In this document: positions 13,949 to 26,330 of the stretch, piece by piece
Layout of the letters: the number at the start of each line of letters is the position of its first letter
How positions within the stretch are numbered: position 1 is the first letter of the stretch
Assembly (NCBI RefSeq): GCF_900168025.1
Contig: NZ_FUYN01000002.1
Location: 212,343-276,342 of the forward strand
Length of the DNA: 64,000 bases
Origin: Acetoanaerobium noterae
GTDB lineage: Bacteria; Bacillota; Clostridia; Peptostreptococcales; Filifactoraceae
Direction: 5' to 3'
Translations under genes and position numbers: made by a program
The notes under the pieces: model-generated
What the model was told of the DNA's origin: nothing
The model's input: only the letters and a program-made list of their open reading frames with translations
Databases searched by the model: none

Positions 13949-13975
13949 AAAGACATCAAAACTAGAATATAGGGC

Positions 13976-14068
13976 TTTAGCCTTATATCCATAACAAGAA
14001 CAGATGAACTATAGCTAGATATGGACGCCTTACGCTATAGGGATGTAGTGGCGTAACCGGCTGAATTA
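13976..14068 (+). ncRNA. c-di-GMP-II riboswitch aptamer
   Basis: The leader contains the 3' core of class II c-di-GMP riboswitches: a stem ACGCC...GGCGT followed by AACCGGCT (around 14024-14062), preceded by TGTAG and by the GATGAA element (14003-14008). TTTAGCC (13976-13982) can pair with GGCTGAA (14059-14065) as P1. Order and spacing match the known aptamers used upstream of clostridial pilin genes. The 3' part (AACCG, CTGA) is also the 5' arm of the following terminator, so folding of the aptamer and of the terminator exclude each other. Ligand binding should therefore allow read-through into pilB (an ON switch). Assignment is by eye against remembered consensus; an Rfam RF01786 search would settle it. 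Confidence 0.82.
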
Positions 14069-14090
14069 TAAATCAGTACGGTTTTTTTTA
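14055..14090 (+). terminator. riboswitch-controlled intrinsic terminator
   Basis: AACCG (14055-14059) and CTGA (14061-14064) pair with TCAG (14073-14076) and CGGTT (14079-14083), followed by eight T. Its 5' arm is the conserved 3' end of the c-di-GMP-II aptamer, which makes the two structures alternatives. Confidence 0.85.
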
Positions 14091-14193
14091 TGCCTAATTA
14101 ATAAGTTTTATCAAAATCTTTATAATTAAACACTAAAAAACTATAAATTAATTCTTGTTAATTAACTGATTTAAAATCAGCAAGGAGGACAAT

Positions 14194-15873
14194 ATGCCCA
14201 ATAAAAAAATGAGACTAGGAGATATTTTAATAGAGGCTGGAATAATAACTTTTGACCAGCTAGAGGATGCTCTAGTACTTCAAAAACAAAAAAACAAAAA
14301 GCTCGGAGAGCTTTTAATAGATGAAAAAATACTTACTGAAGAGCAGATTCTAGGAGTACTTGAATATCAGCTAGGAATTCCATATGTGGATTTAAATAAA
14401 TATTATATAGACCCAAAAGCACCAAAGATAATAACAGAGTCACTAGCAAAAAAACACAACCTCATACCTATAGGAATGAATAGAGGAAAGCTTATGCTAG
14501 CCATGTCAGATCCACTGGATATGATAGCTACAGATGATATCCGTATAACTACTGGGCTTGAGCTGGATTTAGTAATCAGTTCTAAAAATGATATCAAAAA
14601 AGCCATAAATATATATTACGACTCTACAGAACTAGCAGAAAGAGCAGTAGAGGAGTTTAAATCTCAGTCAAACATCCAAGAGGTAGAAGATGATGTAGAG
14701 GATGAAGACATAGTAAATGCACCTATGGTTAGACTGGTAAACACCATTATAAGTCAAGCAGTGCGTTCAAAAGCAAGTGACATACACATAGAGCCGTTTG
14801 AAAAAAACGTAAGAATAAGATACAGAGTAGATGGAGAGCTAAAAGAAGTAATGGCTCCAGCAAAATCTACACACTCAGCTCTAGTTACTAGAATAAAAAT
14901 CATGGGAAAAATGGACATCTCGGAAAAGCGTATCCCACAGGACGGGAGAGTAGAGACCATAATCGAAAACCATGCAATAGATATGAGAATATCTGTACTA
15001 CCTACAGTTTATGGAGAAAAAATAGTAATAAGACTTCTAGATAGAAATGCAATCATAGTTGGAAAAGAGGAGCTAGGATTTACAGCTCATAACCTAGAGC
15101 TTTTTGACAAGATAATCAAAGCTCCAGAAGGAATTATATTACTTACAGGACCTACAGGAAGCGGTAAAACCACTACCCTTTATACCATATTAAAGGAACT
15201 AAACCAAATAAACAAAAACATCATAACAGTGGAAGACCCAGTAGAATATAGACTAAATGGAGTAAATCAAGTACAGGTCAACATAAAAGCAGGACTTACC
15301 TTTGCATCAGGTCTTAGATCTATCTTAAGACAGGATCCAGATATAGTAATGGTAGGAGAGATAAGAGATGCGGAGACTGCACAAATAGCTACTAGAGCAG
15401 CTATAACAGGGCATCTAGTACTTTCTACTTTGCATACCAATGACACAGCTAGCTCTATATCAAGACTGATAGACATGGGGATAGAAACCTACATGGTATC
15501 CTCATCAGTTATGGGAATCATAGCTCAAAGACTAGTAAAAAAAATCTGTACTAAATGTAAGGAATCCTATGAGGCAACAGATGAAGAACTCCATTTTCTA
15601 GGAATAAATGAAAAAGTAACTCTTCATAAAGGAAGAGGATGCAATGCTTGCTCGGGTACTGGATACTCAGGAAGAACCGCCATTCACGAAGTGTTAGTAA
15701 TGGATAGAGAAATAAGAAATCTAATCAATGAAAAGAAGAGCGTAGATGAAATAAAGGATAAAGCTAGAAGCAAGGGACTAAAAACCTTAAACGAATCCTG
15801 TAGAGAGCTAGTGCTTTCTGGAATCACCACTATGGAGCAGCTAATCAAAATTACCTATAGTGTCGATATATAG
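14194..15873 (+). CDS. pilB: type IV pilus extension ATPase PilB (GspE family)
   Basis: Cytoplasmic hexameric ATPase that powers pilus polymerisation. 559 aa. N-terminal GspE/MshEN domain (about 1-150, starting RLGDILIEAGIIT), then the ATPase with Walker A GPTGSGKT (319-326), an Asp box, and Walker B DPDIVMVGEIRD followed by the His box GHLVLSTLHTND. A tetracysteine zinc site (C452, C455, C483, C486) is characteristic of assembly ATPases as opposed to PilT. AAGGAGG sits 6 nt before the ATG. First gene behind the c-di-GMP-II riboswitch, so its expression is expected to rise with c-di-GMP. Confidence 0.95.
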   Translation: MPNKKMRLGDILIEAGIITFDQLEDALVLQKQKNKKLGELLIDEKILTEEQILGVLEYQLGIPYVDLNKYYIDPKAPKIITESLAKKHNLIPIGMNRGKLMLAMSDPLDMIATDDIRITTGLELDLVISSKNDIKKAINIYYDSTELAERAVEEFKSQSNIQEVEDDVEDEDIVNAPMVRLVNTIISQAVRSKASDIHIEPFEKNVRIRYRVDGELKEVMAPAKSTHSALVTRIKIMGKMDISEKRIPQDGRVETIIENHAIDMRISVLPTVYGEKIVIRLLDRNAIIVGKEELGFTAHNLELFDKIIKAPEGIILLTGPTGSGKTTTLYTILKELNQINKNIITVEDPVEYRLNGVNQVQVNIKAGLTFASGLRSILRQDPDIVMVGEIRDAETAQIATRAAITGHLVLSTLHTNDTASSISRLIDMGIETYMVSSSVMGIIAQRLVKKICTKCKESYEATDEELHFLGINEKVTLHKGRGCNACSGTGYSGRTAIHEVLVMDREIRNLINEKKSVDEIKDKARSKGLKTLNESCRELVLSGITTMEQLIKITYSVDI

Positions 15874-16010: not shown

Positions 16011-17069
16011 GTGAATATTTTAGAATTATTGGACAAAGCTATACAGCAGAATGCATCAGACATCCATATTACAGTAGGGCTTCCACCTGTTATGAGAGTA
16101 GATGGAGCATTAATAAAGATTTCTGAAAAAATCTGCAGTCCAAAAGACAGTCTAGAAATTGTCAATCAAATGCTAAAAACCAAGCAAAGAGATGAATTAG
16201 AAGAAAAAGGGGAAATTGACTTTTCTTTCTCAGAGCAAAGCATAGGTAGATTCAGGGCAAATATATACAAGCAAAGAGGAAGCTATGGAGTAGCACTTAG
16301 GGTAGTTCCTATGTATGTGCCTACGATAGATGGTCTTAACCTTCCGCCTATACTAAAGGATTTATCCATGAAGCAAAGAGGATTAATCCTAGTTACTGGA
16401 CCTACAGGAAGTGGTAAATCAACTACATTAGCAGCTATGATAAACCACATGAACCAAAATAGAAATTCTCATGTAATAACTATAGAAGATCCGATAGAGT
16501 ACCTTCATAAGCATAACAAATGCATGATAAATCAAAGAGAAATAGGAAATGATACAAGAACATTTTCAAATGCACTAAGAGCAGCTCTAAGACAAGACCC
16601 AGATGTAATCCTAGTAGGTGAGATGAGAGACCTAGAGACCATATCTACAGCTATAACTGCTGCAGAAACAGGTCACTTGGTATTATCGACTCTACATACA
16701 GTAGGAGCAACAAAAACCACTGACCGTATCATCGACGTATTTCCACCATATCAGCAACAGCAGATACGTACTCAGCTAGCATCAGTATTAGAAGGAATCA
16801 TATCTCAGCAGATTATTCCTAGAGCAGACGGACATGGAAGGGTAGCGGCATTTGAACTACTCATAGCTACGCCAGCTGTTAGAAACTTAATCAGAGAGGG
16901 TAAAACCCATCAGCTTATGACATCTCTAGAAACTGGTTCGAAATTTGGAATGAACACCATGGACGCAGCCCTTATCAAGCTATATAGAGATGGTGTAATA
17001 GACAATGAAAACCTTAGAAAATACGCAGTTGATATAGATATGATAAACAAGCAGGTAGGCTACTACTAA
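16011..17069 (+). CDS. pilT: type IV pilus retraction ATPase PilT
   Basis: Hexameric retraction motor, 352 aa, the normal PilT length. Walker A GPTGSGKS (130-137), Asp box HVITIEDPIEYLH, Walker B DPDVILVGEMRD, His box GHLVLSTLHT, and the C-terminal retraction motif AVRNLIREGK, a near match to the canonical AIRNLIRE. It lacks the zinc tetracysteine of PilB. GTG start preceded by GAGGGG. It is 137 bp after pilB and 13 bp before pilC. Presence of PilT implies dynamic, retractable pili and therefore twitching or DNA-uptake capability. Confidence 0.95.
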   Translation: MNILELLDKAIQQNASDIHITVGLPPVMRVDGALIKISEKICSPKDSLEIVNQMLKTKQRDELEEKGEIDFSFSEQSIGRFRANIYKQRGSYGVALRVVPMYVPTIDGLNLPPILKDLSMKQRGLILVTGPTGSGKSTTLAAMINHMNQNRNSHVITIEDPIEYLHKHNKCMINQREIGNDTRTFSNALRAALRQDPDVILVGEMRDLETISTAITAAETGHLVLSTLHTVGATKTTDRIIDVFPPYQQQQIRTQLASVLEGIISQQIIPRADGHGRVAAFELLIATPAVRNLIREGKTHQLMTSLETGSKFGMNTMDAALIKLYRDGVIDNENLRKYAVDIDMINKQVGYY

Positions 17070-17082
17070 GGGGGGAAGTATA

Positions 17083-18300
17083 TTGGTTGCTGTCTATAAA
17101 TACAAAGCCATAGATAACACAGGACGACCTATAGAGGCAGAATTTCATGCAAATACCAAAGATGAAGTATTGTCTATGCTTAGAGAAAAAGGCTATACAC
17201 CTGTAAAAATAGAACTTCAGGAGCAAAAGTCAAAAGACGTAGGTGATATAGGGCTATTCCAAAAGAAAGTGAAAATCAAGGATATCTCTGTGTTTTGTAA
17301 ACAGCTCTACACTATGCTAAACGCAGGTATGCCACTTTCAAATGCACTTGATGTACTTGCAGACCAGACTGAAAATAAAGTTCTAAGACTTACGACCAAA
17401 GATGTCTACTCTCAGGTACAAACAGGAGCAGTACTATCTCAGGCTATGAAAAAGCACAAAAAAATCTTTCCGAATCTTCTCATAACTATGGTGGAAGCAG
17501 GAGAGATGACAGGTAATCTAGATAACGTGCTTGCAAAAATGTCAGAGCACTATGAAAAAGAAAACAAAATAAACTCAAAGATAAAAGGTGCTATGGTATA
17601 CCCAGCTGTGCTGAGCGTGGCAGCTGTAGCAGTAGTAATATTTCTACTTACTTTCATCATGCCGACATTTACAGGGATGTTTACATCCTCAGGGGTAGAG
17701 CTACCGCTTCCTACTAGGATACTTATGGGCATCAGTGATGCTATAAAGAACTATTGGTATATATTTATAGCAGTCATAGGAACCATAATATTTTCTATAA
17801 ATAGATATGGAAAAACAGAAACAGGAAAAAGACAGTTTGATAATCTCAAGCTTAGAATTCCTGTAGTAGGATCCTCAGTTACTAAGATAGCAACATCTAG
17901 ATTTACTAGGACATTATCAACTCTTATGGCTAGTGGGATTCCGATAGTACCAGCTATGGAAGCTGCGGCAAATGTAACAAATAACCAGATAGTAATAGAT
18001 GGTATGAAAAAAGTAGTAGAAGATGTAAAAAAAGGTCTAAGTATCAGCTATCTTCTAAAGACCATGCACTTCTTCCCACCTATGGTTATATCCATGGTAG
18101 GAATAGGAGAAGAATCAGGTTCCCTAGAAGATATGCTTTCAAAAACTGCGGATTACTATGATGAAGAACTAGATGCTTCGATTCAAAGAATGTTAGCTTT
18201 ATTAGAACCAGCCCTAATCATAGTTATGGGAGGAATAGTTGGTTTTATCGTTATTTCCATGATGCTGCCTATATTTGATTTATCATCTACAGTGCAGTAA
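17083..18300 (+). CDS. pilC: type IV pilus platform protein PilC
   Basis: Inner-membrane platform that couples the ATPases to the growing pilus. 405 aa with two GspF/T2SF repeats (about 70-195 and 270-395) and three membrane helices, including VLSVAAVAVVIFLLTFIMPT and the C-terminal PALIIVMGGIVGFIVISMMLPI with the family ending IFDL. The TTG start has AAGGGGGG about 7 nt upstream. Tight coupling to pilT. Confidence 0.94.
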   Translation: MVAVYKYKAIDNTGRPIEAEFHANTKDEVLSMLREKGYTPVKIELQEQKSKDVGDIGLFQKKVKIKDISVFCKQLYTMLNAGMPLSNALDVLADQTENKVLRLTTKDVYSQVQTGAVLSQAMKKHKKIFPNLLITMVEAGEMTGNLDNVLAKMSEHYEKENKINSKIKGAMVYPAVLSVAAVAVVIFLLTFIMPTFTGMFTSSGVELPLPTRILMGISDAIKNYWYIFIAVIGTIIFSINRYGKTETGKRQFDNLKLRIPVVGSSVTKIATSRFTRTLSTLMASGIPIVPAMEAAANVTNNQIVIDGMKKVVEDVKKGLSISYLLKTMHFFPPMVISMVGIGEESGSLEDMLSKTADYYDEELDASIQRMLALLEPALIIVMGGIVGFIVISMMLPIFDLSSTVQ

Positions 18301-18363: not shown

Positions 18364-18735
18364 ATGATGGAAAAAATGAGAAACAAAAAGAAAAAAGGAT
18401 TTACACTTGTTGAACTTGTTGTTGTAATCGTTATTATTGGTATTTTGGCAGCGATAGCAATACCAAGGCTAAGTGGATTCACTGGCAGAGCTAATGCGTC
18501 TAAGGCTGAAGCAGATGCAAGAACTATAATAACAGCTGCATCTACCATTTATGCAGATAATAATGTTGCTAGTACACCGACTGAAACTCAAATCGAAGCG
18601 CTAACAGGTAATTTGGATGGCACATTAGGCACAGTAACAATAGCCGCTAATGGAGGAGTTTCTTTTACTTATACAATAGGTGGCAGAACTGCTACAGTTG
18701 TAAATAGTGAAATTACTGGAATTACTGGGTCTTAA
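18364..18735 (+). CDS. pilA: major type IV pilin (prepilin)
   Basis: Class III signal: a short basic leader ending KKKKG, then FTLVELVVVIVIIGILAAIA, with cleavage after Gly12 and the obligatory Glu5 of the mature protein. The mature pilin is about 111 aa, small for a pilin, with a helical linker (ASKAEADARTIITAAS) and a beta-rich C-terminal head lacking cysteines. Two ATGs in tandem follow AAGGAGG; either could serve. It is probably the major subunit because it is the simplest prepilin, follows the machinery genes and is followed by a stem-loop that could raise its own mRNA stability. The next gene is an O-antigen-ligase-like protein that may glycosylate it; the head is rich in Ser/Thr. Confidence 0.9.
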   Translation: MMEKMRNKKKKGFTLVELVVVIVIIGILAAIAIPRLSGFTGRANASKAEADARTIITAASTIYADNNVASTPTETQIEALTGNLDGTLGTVTIAANGGVSFTYTIGGRTATVVNSEITGITGS

Positions 18736-18858: not shown

Positions 18859-20274
18859 ATGCGAGTATATAAAGAGTTTTTTTATAAAATAGTTAGAGTT
18901 AGACAAGATTTAAAAAGCTTGAAATCATTAGGAGATTTTACAGAATATTTATCATCATCTTTTTTTACCAAAATTTCATTGTGTATATTATTAGCATGGG
19001 TTATTTCGCCAATATGGATAATTATAAATAGCTCTTTATTAAGTAATAAATTTAAAAATTTAAGCTCTTTTATGAAACGAGTAGAAATTGATATTATATG
19101 GTATGTATTTTTGCAACAATTAGGATATATTGCATTTATAATTTTTATTTTTGTTATAATTAAAAATTATAATGATTTGAAGATCCATAAGTTTAATTAT
19201 AAAAATCTCATTAAAATTAACCAAGTAGAAATATTACTAATATTTATGCTTGTATGGTCAATAATTTCAACACTTGTATCTAGTGACATGAATCTTTCTT
19301 TTACTGGGACATCGTATAGACACGATGGACTAAACACTTATATTACTTATGCTGGTTTTTTTACTTGTGGGTACTATATAAATACGAAATCAAGTATAAA
19401 GAAAATTATTAGTATATTTGTTTTATCATCTACAATTGTAGCTGGATTAGTACTTCTAGATATAAACTATTTAAATAATATTTTTAGTTTCAACACGAAT
19501 AGTGCAATTTTTTACAATATTAATCATTATGGCTATTATTTATGCATGGCTGTAATAAGTTCTGTATTTCTGGTTCTAACAAATAAATCAAATAAAAAAA
19601 ATAAGCATAAATATCTTTTATGCTATGTCCTATTGGTAGCTGTATTAGTAAAAAATAACTCATTTGGACCTTATTTAGCAACTTTAGTTGGTTTATCTGT
19701 ACAGTTAGTCATTATTTACTATAATTTTAGAGATTATTTTAAAGATATGTCACTTATTTTTATACTATTTTTAGTTATATCTTTAGTTATAAATATGTTC
19801 TCCAGTTTTCTAATAGTAGAGGTATTAAAGCTTTTTGGAGATGTTCAAGAGATAGTAACAAATGATAATTTATCAGAGCAAGCTGGTTCTGGTAGATGGA
19901 TTCTTTGGAAAAATGGAATAAAATATATGCTTGAAAAACCTATTTTTGGATATGGGCCTGATAATCTTGGTTATAGATATGCTATGGATAAAATACAGCA
20001 AGATAGACCTCATAACGAGTTTATTCAAATAGCAGCTAGCTTAGGAATTCCAGCTTTATTTTTTTATATAACTGCATTATACAAACATTTTAGACTAGTT
20101 ACTAAAAATATAAAACATTTTGATATAGAATTAATATCTTTGAATTTAGTAGTGGCAACATATCTATTTTCATCTTTTTTTGGGAATACAATGTTTTACA
20201 CTTCACCCTACTATTTTATTTTTTTAGGAATGGCCGTTAGCAATACTAAGTTAGTTATTAACTGTTTTAGGTAG
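18859..20274 (+). CDS. O-antigen ligase/Wzy-like membrane protein, possible pilin oligosaccharyltransferase
   Basis: 471 aa, about 10-12 membrane helices. The Wzy_C/WaaL-type conserved part lies in the C-terminal third: GSGRWILWKNG, PIFGYGPDNLG and RPHNEFIQIAASLGIPAL, containing the family Arg and the His-Asn pair of the large periplasmic loop. The family transfers lipid-linked glycan to lipid A, to another glycan, or (PglL/PilO/TfpO type) to pilin Ser/Thr. Location between the major pilin and the minor prepilins favours pilin glycosylation here, an inference. Base composition is clearly more A/T-rich than pilB-pilC, hinting at a different history. AAGGTG precedes the ATG. A terminator-like hairpin follows. 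Confidence 0.75.
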   Translation: MRVYKEFFYKIVRVRQDLKSLKSLGDFTEYLSSSFFTKISLCILLAWVISPIWIIINSSLLSNKFKNLSSFMKRVEIDIIWYVFLQQLGYIAFIIFIFVIIKNYNDLKIHKFNYKNLIKINQVEILLIFMLVWSIISTLVSSDMNLSFTGTSYRHDGLNTYITYAGFFTCGYYINTKSSIKKIISIFVLSSTIVAGLVLLDINYLNNIFSFNTNSAIFYNINHYGYYLCMAVISSVFLVLTNKSNKKNKHKYLLCYVLLVAVLVKNNSFGPYLATLVGLSVQLVIIYYNFRDYFKDMSLIFILFLVISLVINMFSSFLIVEVLKLFGDVQEIVTNDNLSEQAGSGRWILWKNGIKYMLEKPIFGYGPDNLGYRYAMDKIQQDRPHNEFIQIAASLGIPALFFYITALYKHFRLVTKNIKHFDIELISLNLVVATYLFSSFFGNTMFYTSPYYFIFLGMAVSNTKLVINCFR

Positions 20275-20498: not shown

Positions 20499-21620
20499 AT
20501 GAAAAAACTTAACCTAAAAAAACGTAAAGGTGGAGCATTAGTATTTACACTACTTGTAATGCTCATTATGACGATACTAGGTACTACTCTTCTTCAAATA
20601 AGTTTAGCAGAAAATAAAATGGCAATAAGAGATAAAAATAGAATCGAGGCATATTATCTTGCTAGAGCTGGAGTAGAAACAACAGCTGCTTATCTAATAG
20701 ATAATGCTACACCAGAGGCAGATATAAATCAAATAGTTGACAAAAAATCTGATGAGATTTCTTACGGAAAAGGTACTTTTAATGTAGAATTAATAAAAGA
20801 CCCAACTGCAGGTAGCCATTCCATTATCGTAAAAGGCACAGGAACTGTAAATGGAGTATCCGAAAATGCGACTTTAGAAGTGAATATCCAGGGAGTTCCT
20901 GGAGGTCCAGCGTTTGAATATGGATTATTTGCTATGGGAAATATCTATTTAAGTGGTAGTGCCAATATTGCTGGAGATACTGGGTCAAATGGGAGCATAG
21001 GCCAAAGTAATGGACAGAATAGATTTAATGGAGATACTGATTCTAATTTAAATAAACAGTATCCGCCACCTGTATTCCCTACAGATCCAGATACTGCTTC
21101 AAATCAATCTTATGGGAATAATTCTAATGTAAGCTATAATATGAGTGTTAATAAAATTAGAACATATAATGAATTATCTGCAGGACAGAATACTGAATTA
21201 ACAATAAATACAGGTTCGAACAATCCAGCAAAACCTGCTGTTCTAGTGGTAGGAACATTAAATTTTCCTAAATCAGAGATTATTGTTAATGGAACGAATC
21301 CTTTATATATTTATGTAAAGAAAGAAGCTACATTAAGTGTCGTAAATTCTCCAGGGTCTTCCAATAAACTCTTCTTATTCATGGCTGATGGAGCATCGCT
21401 TCAATTTGGGCAAGGAAATAATTCTTTTGAGGGATTTATATATGGACCTGGAGCGACACTCAATATTAATGGGGGAGAAAATATTTCTGGAGGAGTAATT
21501 ATTAAAACATTCTCAGTGAATGGAAATTTTCAATTAACTGATGAAACTTCATCAGTCGGAGGAATCGACCTTGGAGATTTGCCTGTACAAATCTACAAAA
21601 CAGTGAATTGGCTAGATTAA
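20499..21620 (+). CDS. PilX-like prepilin with C-terminal beta-helix-like domain
   Basis: 373 aa. A basic N-terminus ending RKGG leads into ALVFTLLVMLIMTILGTTLLQISLAENK, the PilX N-terminal pattern, and then RIEAYYLARAGVETTAAYL, the conserved helix after it. It lacks the standard Glu5 of pilins, as PilX-type proteins often do. The C-terminal half is rich in Gly/Asn/Ser and repetitive short strands (SGSANIAGDTGSNGSIG, INGGENISGGVIIK), suggesting a polymer-forming or beta-helix fold. Probably a minor pilin or pilus-associated surface protein. A GAAGGGAA stretch precedes the ATG. Confidence 0.75.
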   Translation: MKKLNLKKRKGGALVFTLLVMLIMTILGTTLLQISLAENKMAIRDKNRIEAYYLARAGVETTAAYLIDNATPEADINQIVDKKSDEISYGKGTFNVELIKDPTAGSHSIIVKGTGTVNGVSENATLEVNIQGVPGGPAFEYGLFAMGNIYLSGSANIAGDTGSNGSIGQSNGQNRFNGDTDSNLNKQYPPPVFPTDPDTASNQSYGNNSNVSYNMSVNKIRTYNELSAGQNTELTINTGSNNPAKPAVLVVGTLNFPKSEIIVNGTNPLYIYVKKEATLSVVNSPGSSNKLFLFMADGASLQFGQGNNSFEGFIYGPGATLNINGGENISGGVIIKTFSVNGNFQLTDETSSVGGIDLGDLPVQIYKTVNWLD

Positions 21621-21681
21621 AATTATAATTATAATGTATAGTAATAATTTTTAATGAGTCATAAAATTTGGAGCGATGTAT

Positions 21682-22041
21682 ATGAAAATTAGTAAAAGAA
21701 AAAAAAATAATAAAGGAATGACCCTTATAGAAATTATTATTGCAATGGCAATTCTAGCAATAATAGGAGTAACATTTTTGAATGTGTTTGGCTCAGGATA
21801 TATTGGAATTGTATCAGGAGGGAAACACACTAAAACTGCATACAAGGCTCAGCAACTAGTTGAGAAAGAAATAATTGATAATCCTGTAGTAACACAAAAG
21901 AATAGTCCAACAATAACTTTTCCTGGAACTACAAGAACAATTCAAAGATTGGGAAGAGAGATAGTAATCACAGAAAATTATAATGGAGATACTAAATACA
22001 AGACAGAAATAACAACATTTATTGCAATTCCAAACCCATAG
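21682..22041 (+). CDS. minor prepilin (PilV/PilE-like)
   Basis: About 119 aa. Class III signal KISKRKKNNKG/MTLIEIIIAMAILAIIGVTF, with Glu5 after the cleavage Gly. The head is short. An ATG at 21676 is only 2 nt from GGAG, whereas the ATG at 21682 is 8 nt away, so the latter is chosen. Followed after 11 bp by the next prepilin gene; the two probably form a minor-pilin pair that primes assembly. Confidence 0.85.
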   Translation: MKISKRKKNNKGMTLIEIIIAMAILAIIGVTFLNVFGSGYIGIVSGGKHTKTAYKAQQLVEKEIIDNPVVTQKNSPTITFPGTTRTIQRLGREIVITENYNGDTKYKTEITTFIAIPNP

Positions 22042-22052
22042 GTGGTGATGAC

Positions 22053-23219
22053 ATGATTGATAACAAAAATAAATCTGGATTTACTTTGATGGAACTAGTT
22101 ATAGTAATAGCGATTCTAGGAGTAGTATTATCGATAGCATCATCTTATTTTTCTTTTGGAACTAAGATATTTTCAAAAGGCGGCAATAGAGCAGATGTCC
22201 AAGCCAGTGCGAGACTCGCTTCCATACAGATAAGTGAAGAACTAAGAACCGCGAAAACTGCTGAATTATTAACAACAAAACCATCACTGCCTATAAGTTC
22301 GGGAGATAAATTTAATTATATATATATTGATGGAAATAAAATTATGTATAGAGATTCTAATAATGTTATAAGAGAGCTATTTCATTCTGATGATGTCTAT
22401 GATTTAAGTTTGATTTTTTCAAAAGAAGGAAGAACTGGGGTCAATTTTACAATAGACATGAAAGTCAAAGAAAATCAATATCAAATTGATTCAGGAGTTG
22501 AAGCCCTTAACATTATTTCTACTGATCAGATAAAGCCAGACATAGCTACAGGAACATATGTAGCTATAAGATACTCAAATCCAATAGCCGATGCTAAAGA
22601 GATAGTTAGACTGGATAGTTTATTATTAGATTTATACGATGTAAATAAATTTTTAGGTGATCCTAACAATATGGTTTTAAAAGAGCCAACATCAGCTCCT
22701 AATCAAATTACTCTCCCAACAAAAGGGCTTAATGGTTCAACTATAACTTGGTCAAACTCGCCAGGGAATATTGACAGTACGGGTAAAGTATATAGGCCAG
22801 GTTTTCTTGATAACGATGTTATTGTAAATTTAACTCCAACAGTTAAGTTTGGAGTTGAATCAGCTACTTTAACTCCATTTAAAGTGAAAGTTGAAAAGTT
22901 AAAAGAATTGAATTTTGATATTAATGAGCCAATATACCCAAGTGCAATGTATGTGAACTTTAATCAACCATTTAGTCATCAGATACTTGTAACAGGAGGT
23001 AACCCAGGATACAAGTTCACAACTTCATCACAGCTACCTGTAGGAGTAACGCTAACAGAAGACGGGCTACTTAGTGGGACAATTCCATATACTAGCTCAG
23101 AACTAAATATACAAGAAGAATATGATATTATTGTGACAGTAAAGGACAGCCATATTGAGATAGGTGGAGTTTTAGCTCCAAATGAAAAAACAGAAACATA
23201 TAAATTGGTAGTTAATTAA
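22053..23219 (+). CDS. large PilW-like prepilin with Ig-type modules (tip adhesin candidate)
   Basis: 388 aa, unusually large for a pilin. Class III signal NKNKSG/FTLMELVIVIAILGVVLSIA with Glu5. The first half (to about 180) is pilin-like. Residues about 195-285 resemble an atrophied bacterial Ig repeat (ITLPTKGLNGSTITWSNSPG). Residues about 300-385 resemble a putative Ig (He_PIG) domain, with GNPGYKFTTSSQLPVGVTL and DGLLSGTIPY. A prepilin carrying binding modules is a natural tip adhesin. AGGTGGTGAT before the ATG. The next gene is 123 bp away with its own candidate promoter. Confidence 0.8.
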   Translation: MIDNKNKSGFTLMELVIVIAILGVVLSIASSYFSFGTKIFSKGGNRADVQASARLASIQISEELRTAKTAELLTTKPSLPISSGDKFNYIYIDGNKIMYRDSNNVIRELFHSDDVYDLSLIFSKEGRTGVNFTIDMKVKENQYQIDSGVEALNIISTDQIKPDIATGTYVAIRYSNPIADAKEIVRLDSLLLDLYDVNKFLGDPNNMVLKEPTSAPNQITLPTKGLNGSTITWSNSPGNIDSTGKVYRPGFLDNDVIVNLTPTVKFGVESATLTPFKVKVEKLKELNFDINEPIYPSAMYVNFNQPFSHQILVTGGNPGYKFTTSSQLPVGVTLTEDGLLSGTIPYTSSELNIQEEYDIIVTVKDSHIEIGGVLAPNEKTETYKLVVN

Positions 23220-23342: not shown

Positions 23343-24362
23343 TTGAAGCAAAACAAGAGTAAGCTAGGCTTATCATCCAAGAAAAAAGATGTTAAATGCC
23401 TGTCCATTGATATAGGAAGCAGCTATATAAAGTTTGCTGTAGGACAAAAGATGGGCAGGCGCCTTAAGGTTGACAAGACATTTAAAGCAAGACTGCCAGC
23501 TGGTGTATATGAAAATGGACATATGCACAATATCCAAGAAATGAAATCCATAATTCAAGGTGCATTAAATGCAAATTCTGTAAAGCTAAAAGACGTTATT
23601 TGCACCCTTGAATCTACAGATGCAATCAAAAGAGAGCTAGTAGTTCCTGCTGTTGCAGCTGAAGACTTATCAGAGATGGTAAGCTATGAAATCGGTCAGT
23701 ACCTGCCTATTGATATCAATAGCTATGTACTGCAGTACAAGATTGTGAGAGAGTTTGAGGAGGAAAATGTAAAGAAATATGAACTCCTTGTAGCTGCCCT
23801 TCCAAAAGAAATAGTTCACAACATTTACTCTATGCTTATCGAGATGGGATTAGATCCATATGCACTTGATATTCACTCAAATGCAGTTGACAAGATAGCA
23901 GCTGAGTATGAACTATTTAACGAAGCTAGTATCAAAGAAAATACAGCAGCATTTTTGGATTTAGGCCATGAAAATATCAACGTTATTATAGTTGAAAAAG
24001 GCCAATATAAGTTTAATAGACTTATAAAAAATGGAACAAGAGATTTTGAACAGCTTACTACTGAGTTTGAGTTCAAAACTATCGATGAGATTTCTCAGCA
24101 TCTTGATGTAGTAGACAGATGGATAGAGGAAATCGACAAGGTATTTAAGTACTACACTAGTAGAAGCGTAGATAATACTATAGATAAGATTTTTATCTAT
24201 GGAGGGATTTCTGTGATGGAGGGCTTAGATACATATATCCATGAAAGAGTAAATATCCCTGTAGAGCTAATCAAATCCATAGATAACGTAGAGATAGTAG
24301 CTGGCAATGAATATACTTTGGCACAGAGCTTAAATGCTATTAGTGCGATTATCAGGCTGTAG
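23343..24362 (+). CDS. pilM: type IV pilus assembly protein PilM (actin-like)
   Basis: Cytoplasmic actin-fold ATPase of the alignment complex, binding the PilN N-terminus. 339 aa. Actin/hexokinase/Hsp70 motifs: phosphate 1 (LSIDIGSSYIKFAVG), phosphate 2 (AAFLDLGHENINVIIV) and the adenosine motif (KIFIYGGISVMEGL). TTG start behind GGGGGAGGG. It begins a pilM-pilN-pilO transcript with 14-bp and overlapping junctions. Confidence 0.9.
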   Translation: MKQNKSKLGLSSKKKDVKCLSIDIGSSYIKFAVGQKMGRRLKVDKTFKARLPAGVYENGHMHNIQEMKSIIQGALNANSVKLKDVICTLESTDAIKRELVVPAVAAEDLSEMVSYEIGQYLPIDINSYVLQYKIVREFEEENVKKYELLVAALPKEIVHNIYSMLIEMGLDPYALDIHSNAVDKIAAEYELFNEASIKENTAAFLDLGHENINVIIVEKGQYKFNRLIKNGTRDFEQLTTEFEFKTIDEISQHLDVVDRWIEEIDKVFKYYTSRSVDNTIDKIFIYGGISVMEGLDTYIHERVNIPVELIKSIDNVEIVAGNEYTLAQSLNAISAIIRL

Positions 24363-24376
24363 GGGGTGGACATAAT

Positions 24377-24937
24377 ATGAGAGATTTTAACTTTTTTGCA
24401 CCCTATGAGCAGGAGCCTAAGAAAAAAGCTTCAGGCAGTAATGTCCTTATGATAGTGGCAGCTGGATTACTTGCTTTATGCTTGGCTTTAGTGATATTTA
24501 ATACCATGACCCTTATGTCTCTTGAAAAGTCTATTACCAATCTAGATTCGAAGATGAATGAGCCAGATTTTAAAGCAAAGGTTGCAAATGTTCAGGCAAA
24601 GCAAGCTGAGCTTAATTCTTTAAAAACTGACCAAGTTTTCTTTGAAGCTCTAGATATAGTTATGGATAAGCAAAACAAGGTAAATGAAGCTGCAGTTAGA
24701 CTCATAGCTGAGCAGGTACCTGATAATCTTCACCTTACAGATTTATCTATAGTTGAAGACAAGATAGACATTAAAGGCAAGTCGTACAACAAAGTTGCTG
24801 TAGCACAGTTTCAGCACAATCTAAGACAGACAGAAGAATTTGATAACCTTTTCGTATCTGAAATGGTTAAAGAAGAAGCATATTATAATTTTAGCATCAT
24901 GCTTGAGGCAAAGGGGGATGAGACTGATGAAAATTAG
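24377..24937 (+). CDS. pilN: type IV pilus assembly protein PilN
   Basis: Bitopic membrane protein, 186 aa. The cytoplasmic N-terminus DFNFFAPYE is the PilM-binding peptide type (consensus INLLP, here diverged). It has one membrane helix (about 24-44, VLMIVAAGLLALCLALVIF), a coiled coil (about 50-85), then a ferredoxin-like periplasmic domain with the fimbrial-assembly pattern ADQVPDNLHLTDLSI-like. GGGGGTGG precedes the ATG. Its last 11 nt overlap pilO. Confidence 0.85.
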   Translation: MRDFNFFAPYEQEPKKKASGSNVLMIVAAGLLALCLALVIFNTMTLMSLEKSITNLDSKMNEPDFKAKVANVQAKQAELNSLKTDQVFFEALDIVMDKQNKVNEAAVRLIAEQVPDNLHLTDLSIVEDKIDIKGKSYNKVAVAQFQHNLRQTEEFDNLFVSEMVKEEAYYNFSIMLEAKGDETDEN

Positions 24938-26330
24938 TAACAGAGAGAAAAATCTCTTACTTCTCCTTTTTATAGCTGTAGGTGGATATTTGTTCTTTAC
25001 CTTTGTATATACGCCTCAGACTGAAAAGCTAGAAACCCTAAAGCAACAAGAGCAAGCTAAACAAAACGAGTATGCTCAGATGCAAGCACTTATAAATTCT
25101 GAAGGTAATTTGGATTTAGAAATAGAAACTATAAAAAACGAGCTTCTTCCTGTAGCTAGAACTTATTTTGGAGATATAGACCAGGAAGAAACTATAGTTA
25201 TTTTAGATGACTTTGCTCAAAAAGCTGATTTGGATATCAAAGGTATCAGATTTGTAGAGCCTATTGCAAAGAGTTTGACTGAGCTAAAAGAAAGTGTAGC
25301 TTCTAAAAATCAAGAAAACAAACCAGCAGAAAAACCAGCCGAAGCTACATCAGAAGGTGAACCTGCTAAAGAAGAGACAGTTGAACCAGACAACATTACA
25401 GCTAGGGCTGCAGAAGTAGAATTTGAGGGCAATTATGATAAACTTATGGATTATTTAGTTGAGGTAGGAAGCTATTATAAACGTATTTCTTCATATTCTA
25501 TGCAACTTAAATCCGAACAAGGAAAGCCTCTTACAGGTACTATATTTATGAACTTTTATTGTATAGACAGCGTTGATAAATATGTTCCTCAAGATCCAAG
25601 TATTTTGGAATATAACTTTATTCCTCGTTCATCAAAAGACAATCCTTTTGAAGCGTATTCATGGTCATACAAGATTACTACAATTCCTGGTGTTTATACA
25701 TCTCCAGTTAGTCAGCAAGGAATAATAGTGGGACCTAGTGAGCTAGGCATGTATTATCTTCCTGAGCAAACAAAGGAAGATCCTATAAGTATGGAAAAGA
25801 CTATGGAGCTAGGGGCACAGAATCCTATTCCGTTAGCTCTTAATATATTTGATGAAAAGCTACTTTACAGCTTTGAAGATAAGATTCTAAAGACATTTGC
25901 TTTAGATAAAGGAAATACTATTTCAGGCAAGCTAGAGAAGGATTTAGAGTCTGAAGAAAATCTTTATAGCATTACTTACACCTTTGACGGTGAAGAAGCT
26001 GAAACAGAAGTATATCTTGATTTACAAAGTAAAAAACTAACTATAGATAAGCAACCTCAGTACCTTTCTTTATTTGTAAATGCTGATAAAAAGCTAGATA
26101 ATATACTCGGACTTATTGTTACTGACGCCAAAGGTATGGACTACAGAGTATTTTTAGCTAATAAAATCGACTGGACAAATCAAAAAGAGCTAAGAGGAGT
26201 GCTTCCAGAAAGTATTACTTATCCACTTACAGTTAAAAATGTATTTGTAAGAGATAATTCTGATACTAGTACAAAAAATGCAAAGCTATCTTTTGATGAA
26301 TTAAAAGTAGCATATTATGAAGTAGATTAG
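24927..26330 (+). CDS. pilO: PilO-like alignment protein with long C-terminal extension
   Basis: 467 aa. One N-terminal membrane helix (NLLLLLFIAVGGYLFFTFVY), a coiled coil (about 30-65), then a PilO-type ferredoxin-like domain (about 75-220), interrupted by a low-complexity Glu/Ala/Pro/Lys stretch (about 125-155). Ordinary PilO is about 200 aa. The remaining roughly 240 residues are an unrecognised acidic beta-rich domain, perhaps replacing PilP. An in-frame ATG at 24918 abuts GGGGG; the ATG at 24927 has proper spacing and begins MKISNREKN. Overlap with pilN indicates translational coupling. A strong terminator begins 2 nt after the stop. Confidence 0.78.
   Translation: MKISNREKNLLLLLFIAVGGYLFFTFVYTPQTEKLETLKQQEQAKQNEYAQMQALINSEGNLDLEIETIKNELLPVARTYFGDIDQEETIVILDDFAQKADLDIKGIRFVEPIAKSLTELKESVASKNQENKPAEKPAEATSEGEPAKEETVEPDNITARAAEVEFEGNYDKLMDYLVEVGSYYKRISSYSMQLKSEQGKPLTGTIFMNFYCIDSVDKYVPQDPSILEYNFIPRSSKDNPFEAYSWSYKITTIPGVYTSPVSQQGIIVGPSELGMYYLPEQTKEDPISMEKTMELGAQNPIPLALNIFDEKLLYSFEDKILKTFALDKGNTISGKLEKDLESEENLYSITYTFDGEEAETEVYLDLQSKKLTIDKQPQYLSLFVNADKKLDNILGLIVTDAKGMDYRVFLANKIDWTNQKELRGVLPESITYPLTVKNVFVRDNSDTSTKNAKLSFDELKVAYYEVD

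Follow-up and report, generated by a model that had tools for sequence, protein, structure and literature searches.

A predicted class II cyclic di-GMP riboswitch upstream of the type IV pilus operon of Acetoanaerobium noterae

Results

The leader of a type IV pilus operon of Acetoanaerobium noterae carries a riboswitch of the class II cyclic dimeric GMP (c-di-GMP) type that very probably serves as a transcriptional ON switch for the operon. The leader lies in a stretch of 64,000 nucleotides, hereafter the window, which corresponds to positions 212,343 to 276,342 of the forward strand of contig NZ_FUYN01000002.1; the positions below are those of the window, and all features described in it are on this strand (+). 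Judged from the sequence, positions 13989-14071 encode a c-di-GMP aptamer of class II. Its 3' end overlaps an intrinsic terminator, and pilB is the next gene downstream.

Identification of the aptamer

Scanned with Rfam at the default curated cut-offs, the window gave no hits; when an E-value threshold was used instead, RF01786 scored best in this region. The match covered the full length of the model (positions 1-84) at 13989-14071 with 48.2 bits and an E-value of 9.5e-10 in the 351 bases scanned, and it was the sole RF01786 match in the whole 2.8 Mb genome (E-value 1.8e-9). The covariance search with RF01786, which a first-pass annotation of this DNA had proposed as a check, thus gave a significant and genome-unique match, though one below the curated cut-off. 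We also used an independent covariance model (R1) trained on 26 aptamers of the order, all from genera other than that of A. noterae, so that neither the window nor its sister species contributed. R1 gave 82.6 bits for the same region (E-value 1.2e-19 in 74 kb) and a single match in the genome (E-value 4.6e-18), and this score falls inside the range of the pilB-linked relatives. The motif GTAGTGGCGTAACCGGCT, around which the first-pass annotation had placed a class II core, was located at 14045-14062, where both RF01786 and R1 match. The boundaries of that annotation had to be revised: its start at 13976 falls within a separate upstream hairpin, the aptamer itself runs from 13989 to 14071, and position 14089 is the last of the terminator. 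The hairpin (13967-13988), a perfect 9-pair structure of the form ATATAGGGC-TTTA-GCCTTATAT, lies immediately 5' of the aptamer; it was considered as a component of the switch and rejected, since the sister species (L038) does not have it.

Structure and covariation

An alignment of 87 aptamers from relatives of the order was evaluated for covariation; these sequences are related, and the counts taken from them are not independent. The whole structure reached a covariation score of 0.745, whereas shuffles gave 0.259 and sliding of the partners gave 0.10-0.14; 84.5% of the cells were paired, as compared to 59.3% and 29-43%, respectively. Every helix, the pseudoknot included, is supported by covariation in this set. 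P2 (ACA at 14000-14002 with TGT at 14044-14046) was paired in 94.6% of the cells and all 3 of its pairs covary, while P3 (CTATAGC at 14009-14015 with GCTATAG at 14034-14040) was paired in 94.9% and 7 of its 7 pairs covary. All pairs of both helices are formed in the window. The pseudoknot, in which the P3 loop pairs with the 3' strand, was paired in 99.7% of the cells and showed compensatory changes; in the window, ACGCC at 14025-14029 forms five pairs with GGCGT at 14050-14054. P1 was the least paired helix (63.9% of the cells). Its 5' strand is at 13991-13998, where A13997-G13998 pair with C14061-T14062 and AUAA (13991-13994) can pair with UUAU (14066-14069).

The conserved core, AACCGGC at 14055-14061, comprises the equivalents of A69, A70, C71, C72 and G73 followed by the first P1 base, in a numbering that we take to be that of structure 3Q3Z. 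Conservation across the alignment was 85/87 for A69, 83/87 for A70, 87/87 for both C71 and C72, and 82/87 for G73. At the near-invariant positions, namely the U before the loop GG and AACCG, the window is identical to the consensus.

Terminator and proposed switching mechanism

A terminator scan with a bulge-free stem model found none in the stretch, while folding recovered a bulged stem at 14055-14083 with a predicted energy of -9.9 kcal/mol. This stem pairs AACCGGCTGA with TCAGT-A-CGGTT and can be written as AACCGGCUGA-AUUAUAAA-UCAGUACGGUU followed by U residues; the U-run occupies 14082-14089. Both the minimum free energy fold and the centroid fold of the leader contain the terminator. Its 5' arm (14055-14064) lies within the aptamer core and P1 and begins at the first A of AACCG, and the core with P1 and the terminator are therefore mutually exclusive. 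Sequence and folding thus bore out the earlier claim that the 3' end of the aptamer is the 5' arm of the terminator.

The predicted mutual exclusion held beyond the window as well, the overlap being kept in 26 of 27 pilB-linked relatives. In these aptamers of the order, the 5' arm of the terminator begins 0-5 nucleotides after the A69 equivalent, a placement that downstream positions picked at random gave in only 89 of 1620 cases and shuffles, at the weakest observed energy, in 44 of 1080 (4-6%). The terminator also uses two to three P1 positions in the window and the sister species. In several relatives (e.g., GTTAG in L056, L072 and L103), the 3' arm of the terminator copies the 5' strand of P1, which looks like the arrangement of a strand-exchange switch. 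No competing antiterminator was seen in the leader. This fact and the overlap of the core with the terminator imply that ligand binding should increase read-through.

The following regulation is proposed. When c-di-GMP is low, the nascent AACCGGCUGA (14055-14064) would pair with UCAGUACGGUU, and the terminator would form before pilB is reached. When c-di-GMP is high, ligand binding would hold P1, the pseudoknot and the AACCG core in place and so withhold the terminator's 5' arm from pairing, and the polymerase would read through into pilB-pilT-pilC-pilins-pilMNO.

Points against the proposed regulation and alternative explanations

Several observations weigh against this regulation. The aptamer score of 48.2 bits does not reach the RF01786 gathering score of 53.5, which is a convention of curation and not a biological feature. 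P1 of the window is weak, consisting of two contiguous pairs by the core, an internal loop and four A-U pairs, and this is the main structural reservation. A promoter-like sequence, TTAATA-17-TATAAT (10/12), is present at 14098-14126, 3' of the terminator, and could bypass it. Finally, the RNA was absent from the 420 bases upstream of the PilB orthologues in four genomes of the same family (G002, G004, G006 and G010; 65-67% identical), as it was from the 420 bases upstream of a more distant PilB orthologue (G003). Riboswitch control of pilB is, thus, not universal.

The weak P1, which the sister species shares, together with the Rfam score below threshold, could mean that the riboswitch has decayed to the point where the ligand no longer outcompetes the terminator, so that termination is constitutive or set by other means. 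This is highly improbable, as the core nucleotides, P2, P3 and the five-pair pseudoknot are all intact and the R1 score is inside the range seen for the pilB-linked relatives. Besides, the sister species, whose PilB is 80% identical, retains the aptamer, and the changes in its terminator stem preserve pairing. It also appears very unlikely that the RNA, though real, exerts little control because transcription of pilB starts mainly at a promoter at 14098-14126. Although the 10/12 match would suit such a promoter, three sites of this kind were found in the A+T-rich region where 2.4 were expected by chance, and in many relatives pilB starts about 50-110 nucleotides after the aptamer, leaving no room behind the terminator for a second promoter.

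The pseudoknot subtype and the Rfam cut-off

The aptamer of the window has P1, P2, P3, the pseudoknot and the AACCG core in common with RF01786, but the consensus of that family has a GCAC/GUGC pseudoknot (GGGCAC with GUGCAA), whereas the window has ACGC/GCGU. The two variable pseudoknot pairs were A-U and G-C, as in the window, in 50 of the 87 aptamers, and G-C and A-U, as in the canonical subtype, in 34; three to four further combinations were also seen. The structure line of the RF01786 model leaves the pseudoknot columns unpaired, and a compensated swap is consequently scored as mismatches. The cut-off was missed by 14 of the 25 pilB-linked copies of the ACGC subtype, and we infer that their low scores and that of the window are partly due to this penalty.

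The ACGC form was found in 25 of 27 pilB-linked aptamers (24 and one with a G-U pair) as compared to 26 of 61 others, these being related and non-independent species. The idea that the subtype is specific to pilus operons was rejected: 26 aptamers of the subtype in alignment A1 precede genes other than pilB, and when the genomes of all species were scanned for the pattern, it turned up before many other genes, also in Chloroflexi, Actinobacteria and candidate phyla. A broader proposal would be that ACGC/GCGU riboswitches form a functionally distinct subtype whose affinity or kinetics are tuned differently from those of GCAC/GUGC, that they sit preferentially on pilB operons in the order, where they would provide two-layer control by c-di-GMP (RNA switch and MshE-type motor), and that they are largely unannotated owing to the Rfam cut-off. 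We regard this proposal, taken as a whole, as speculative and rather unlikely.

Aptamers of the c-di-GMP-II type were also seen on contigs labelled Komeilibacteria, Parcubacteria, Falkowbacteria and Patescibacteria (L151, L157, L158 and L164; binning as labelled), and three of them precede small proteins resembling response-regulator receivers. Tandem or triple c-di-GMP-II aptamers occur in some relatives (L058, L093, L095 and L039).

Predicted ligand of the aptamer

Two variant families were considered as better homes for the aptamer and rejected. RF03169 (c-di-GMP-II-GAG) had no match in the genome even at an E-value of 10, while the same model did match four RNAs elsewhere (L158, L146, L199 and L174). 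RF03170 (c-di-GMP-II-GCG) likewise had no match in the genome, a negative for which we have no positive control. The orphan variant RF03169 shares the CGCC/GGCG pseudoknot letters with the aptamer of the window. However, the canonical U and AA, present in the window and in every pilB-linked relative (UGGACGC...GCGUAACC), are missing from its consensus, CGGuCGCC...GGCGAGACC. The core is AGACCG in RF03169 (GGCGAGACC) and UAACCG in the window (GGCGUAACC), and the base before the loop GG is C in RF03169 and U in the window. Since the core is canonical and RF03169 has no match in the genome, c-di-GMP is predicted to be the ligand.

It could be argued that the swapped pseudoknot marks RNAs that bind another ligand, like the orphan c-di-GMP-II-GAG variant, as some RNAs of other phyla with the same pseudoknot letters score best against RF03169 and the base preceding A69 is U and not C. 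We consider this exceedingly unlikely, given that the window and the pilB-linked relatives keep the canonical nucleotides that the RF03169 consensus does not have and that neither variant family has a match in the genome; the pilus context and the c-di-GMP domain of PilB also suit c-di-GMP.

The four RNAs matched by RF03169 have a canonical UGGACGC...GCGUAACCG core, yet their best Rfam score is to c-di-GMP-II-GAG. This assignment is apparently driven by the pseudoknot letters and may be a misassignment in automatic annotation.

Machinery for c-di-GMP signalling is encoded in the genome, with 36 matches to the GGDEF domain and, in addition, four c-di-GMP riboswitches of class I. Three of the class I riboswitches (L032-L034; G000:C2:532781-536016) lie within 3.3 kb, before proteins without a Pfam match, and the fourth (L035; G000:C3:92229-92312) precedes a transglutaminase-like protein.

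The pilus operon and PilB

The pilus operon that the first-pass annotation had expected downstream of the switch is present, with the PilB, PilT, PilC, prepilin, PilM and PilN genes ordered on one strand. The extension ATPase gene pilB (14194-15873; T2SSE 1.3e-140, MshEN 1.7e-18) is followed by pilT (16011-17069; TIGR01420 488.5 bits, cut-off 319.1), pilC (17083-18300; T2SSF 1.5e-67) and a prepilin gene (18364-18735; N_methyl 2.2e-10). Minor pilin genes assigned by domain matches (PilX_N and two N_methyl proteins) lie at 20499-23219, and pilM, pilN and a pilO-like gene, the last with a weak T2SSM match below the cut-off, at 23343-26330. Between pilC and the prepilin gene on one side and the minor pilin genes on the other, a protein of 471 amino acids of the Wzy_C/O-antigen-ligase family is encoded (18859-20274); this protein may act as a PglL/TfpO-like O-glycosyltransferase of pilins. 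Just 5' of the pilB ribosome-binding site, an inverted repeat, CTGATTTAAAATCAG, is present at 14166-14180. This repeat resembles the CTGA...TCAG arms of the terminator and is not obvious in the sister species.

About 25 genomes of the order have the aptamer, pilB, pilT and pilC in this same succession. Within the family of A. noterae, the arrangement is otherwise confined to its sister species, a member of the same genus.

Residues 7-59 of PilB are matched by NF053729 (c-di-GMP_motif), a curated model for c-di-GMP-binding sequences related to MshE, with 64.1 bits (cut-off 38). The MshE-type consensus consists of two (R/K/L)LGxx.. motifs, 5 residues apart (PMC11731258). The first motif of PilB, RLGDILIEAGIITFDQLEDALVLQ, fits the published consensus completely (PMC11731258). 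In the second, KLGELLIDEKILTEEQILGVLEYQ, the K at position 1 is allowed by the extended consensus, and there are two departures, K for G and I for L. These matches suggest that PilB probably binds c-di-GMP via its N-terminal MshE-type motifs and that c-di-GMP may act on both the transcription of the pilus genes and the motor. The motif was also considered as a special feature of riboswitch-controlled PilB proteins; this was rejected, since PilB proteins of the same family without a riboswitch carry it too.

Comparison with known systems

The class II switches of Clostridioides difficile are ON switches (PMC6200980), and one of them, Cdi-2-4, lies upstream of pilA1, where it terminates transcription without ligand and allows read-through with c-di-GMP (PMC6200980, PMC6366702). 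The parallel with C. difficile drawn in the first-pass annotation is thus well founded, and the architecture described here was already known from that organism. What is added is a pseudoknot subtype missed by the Rfam cut-off and a conserved linkage to pilB. These results would extend the C. difficile paradigm, in which c-di-GMP switches on type IV pili via a class II riboswitch, to about 25 genomes across the order in which the switch sits immediately ahead of pilB, and the unpaired pseudoknot columns of the covariance model would explain why standard annotation misses many such switches. If the PilB domain binds c-di-GMP, one messenger would govern both the making and the running of the pilus machine.

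As far as sequence tells, the switch of the window is like Cdi-2-4 in having a terminator that forms without ligand and in being an ON switch. They differ in position: Cdi-2-4 is found ahead of pilA1, which encodes the major pilin, and transcription from there continues in part into the pilB operon, whereas the switch of A. noterae directly precedes pilB, with pilT, pilC and the pilin genes behind it. The ACGC/GCGU pseudoknot subtype of the window may be a second difference.
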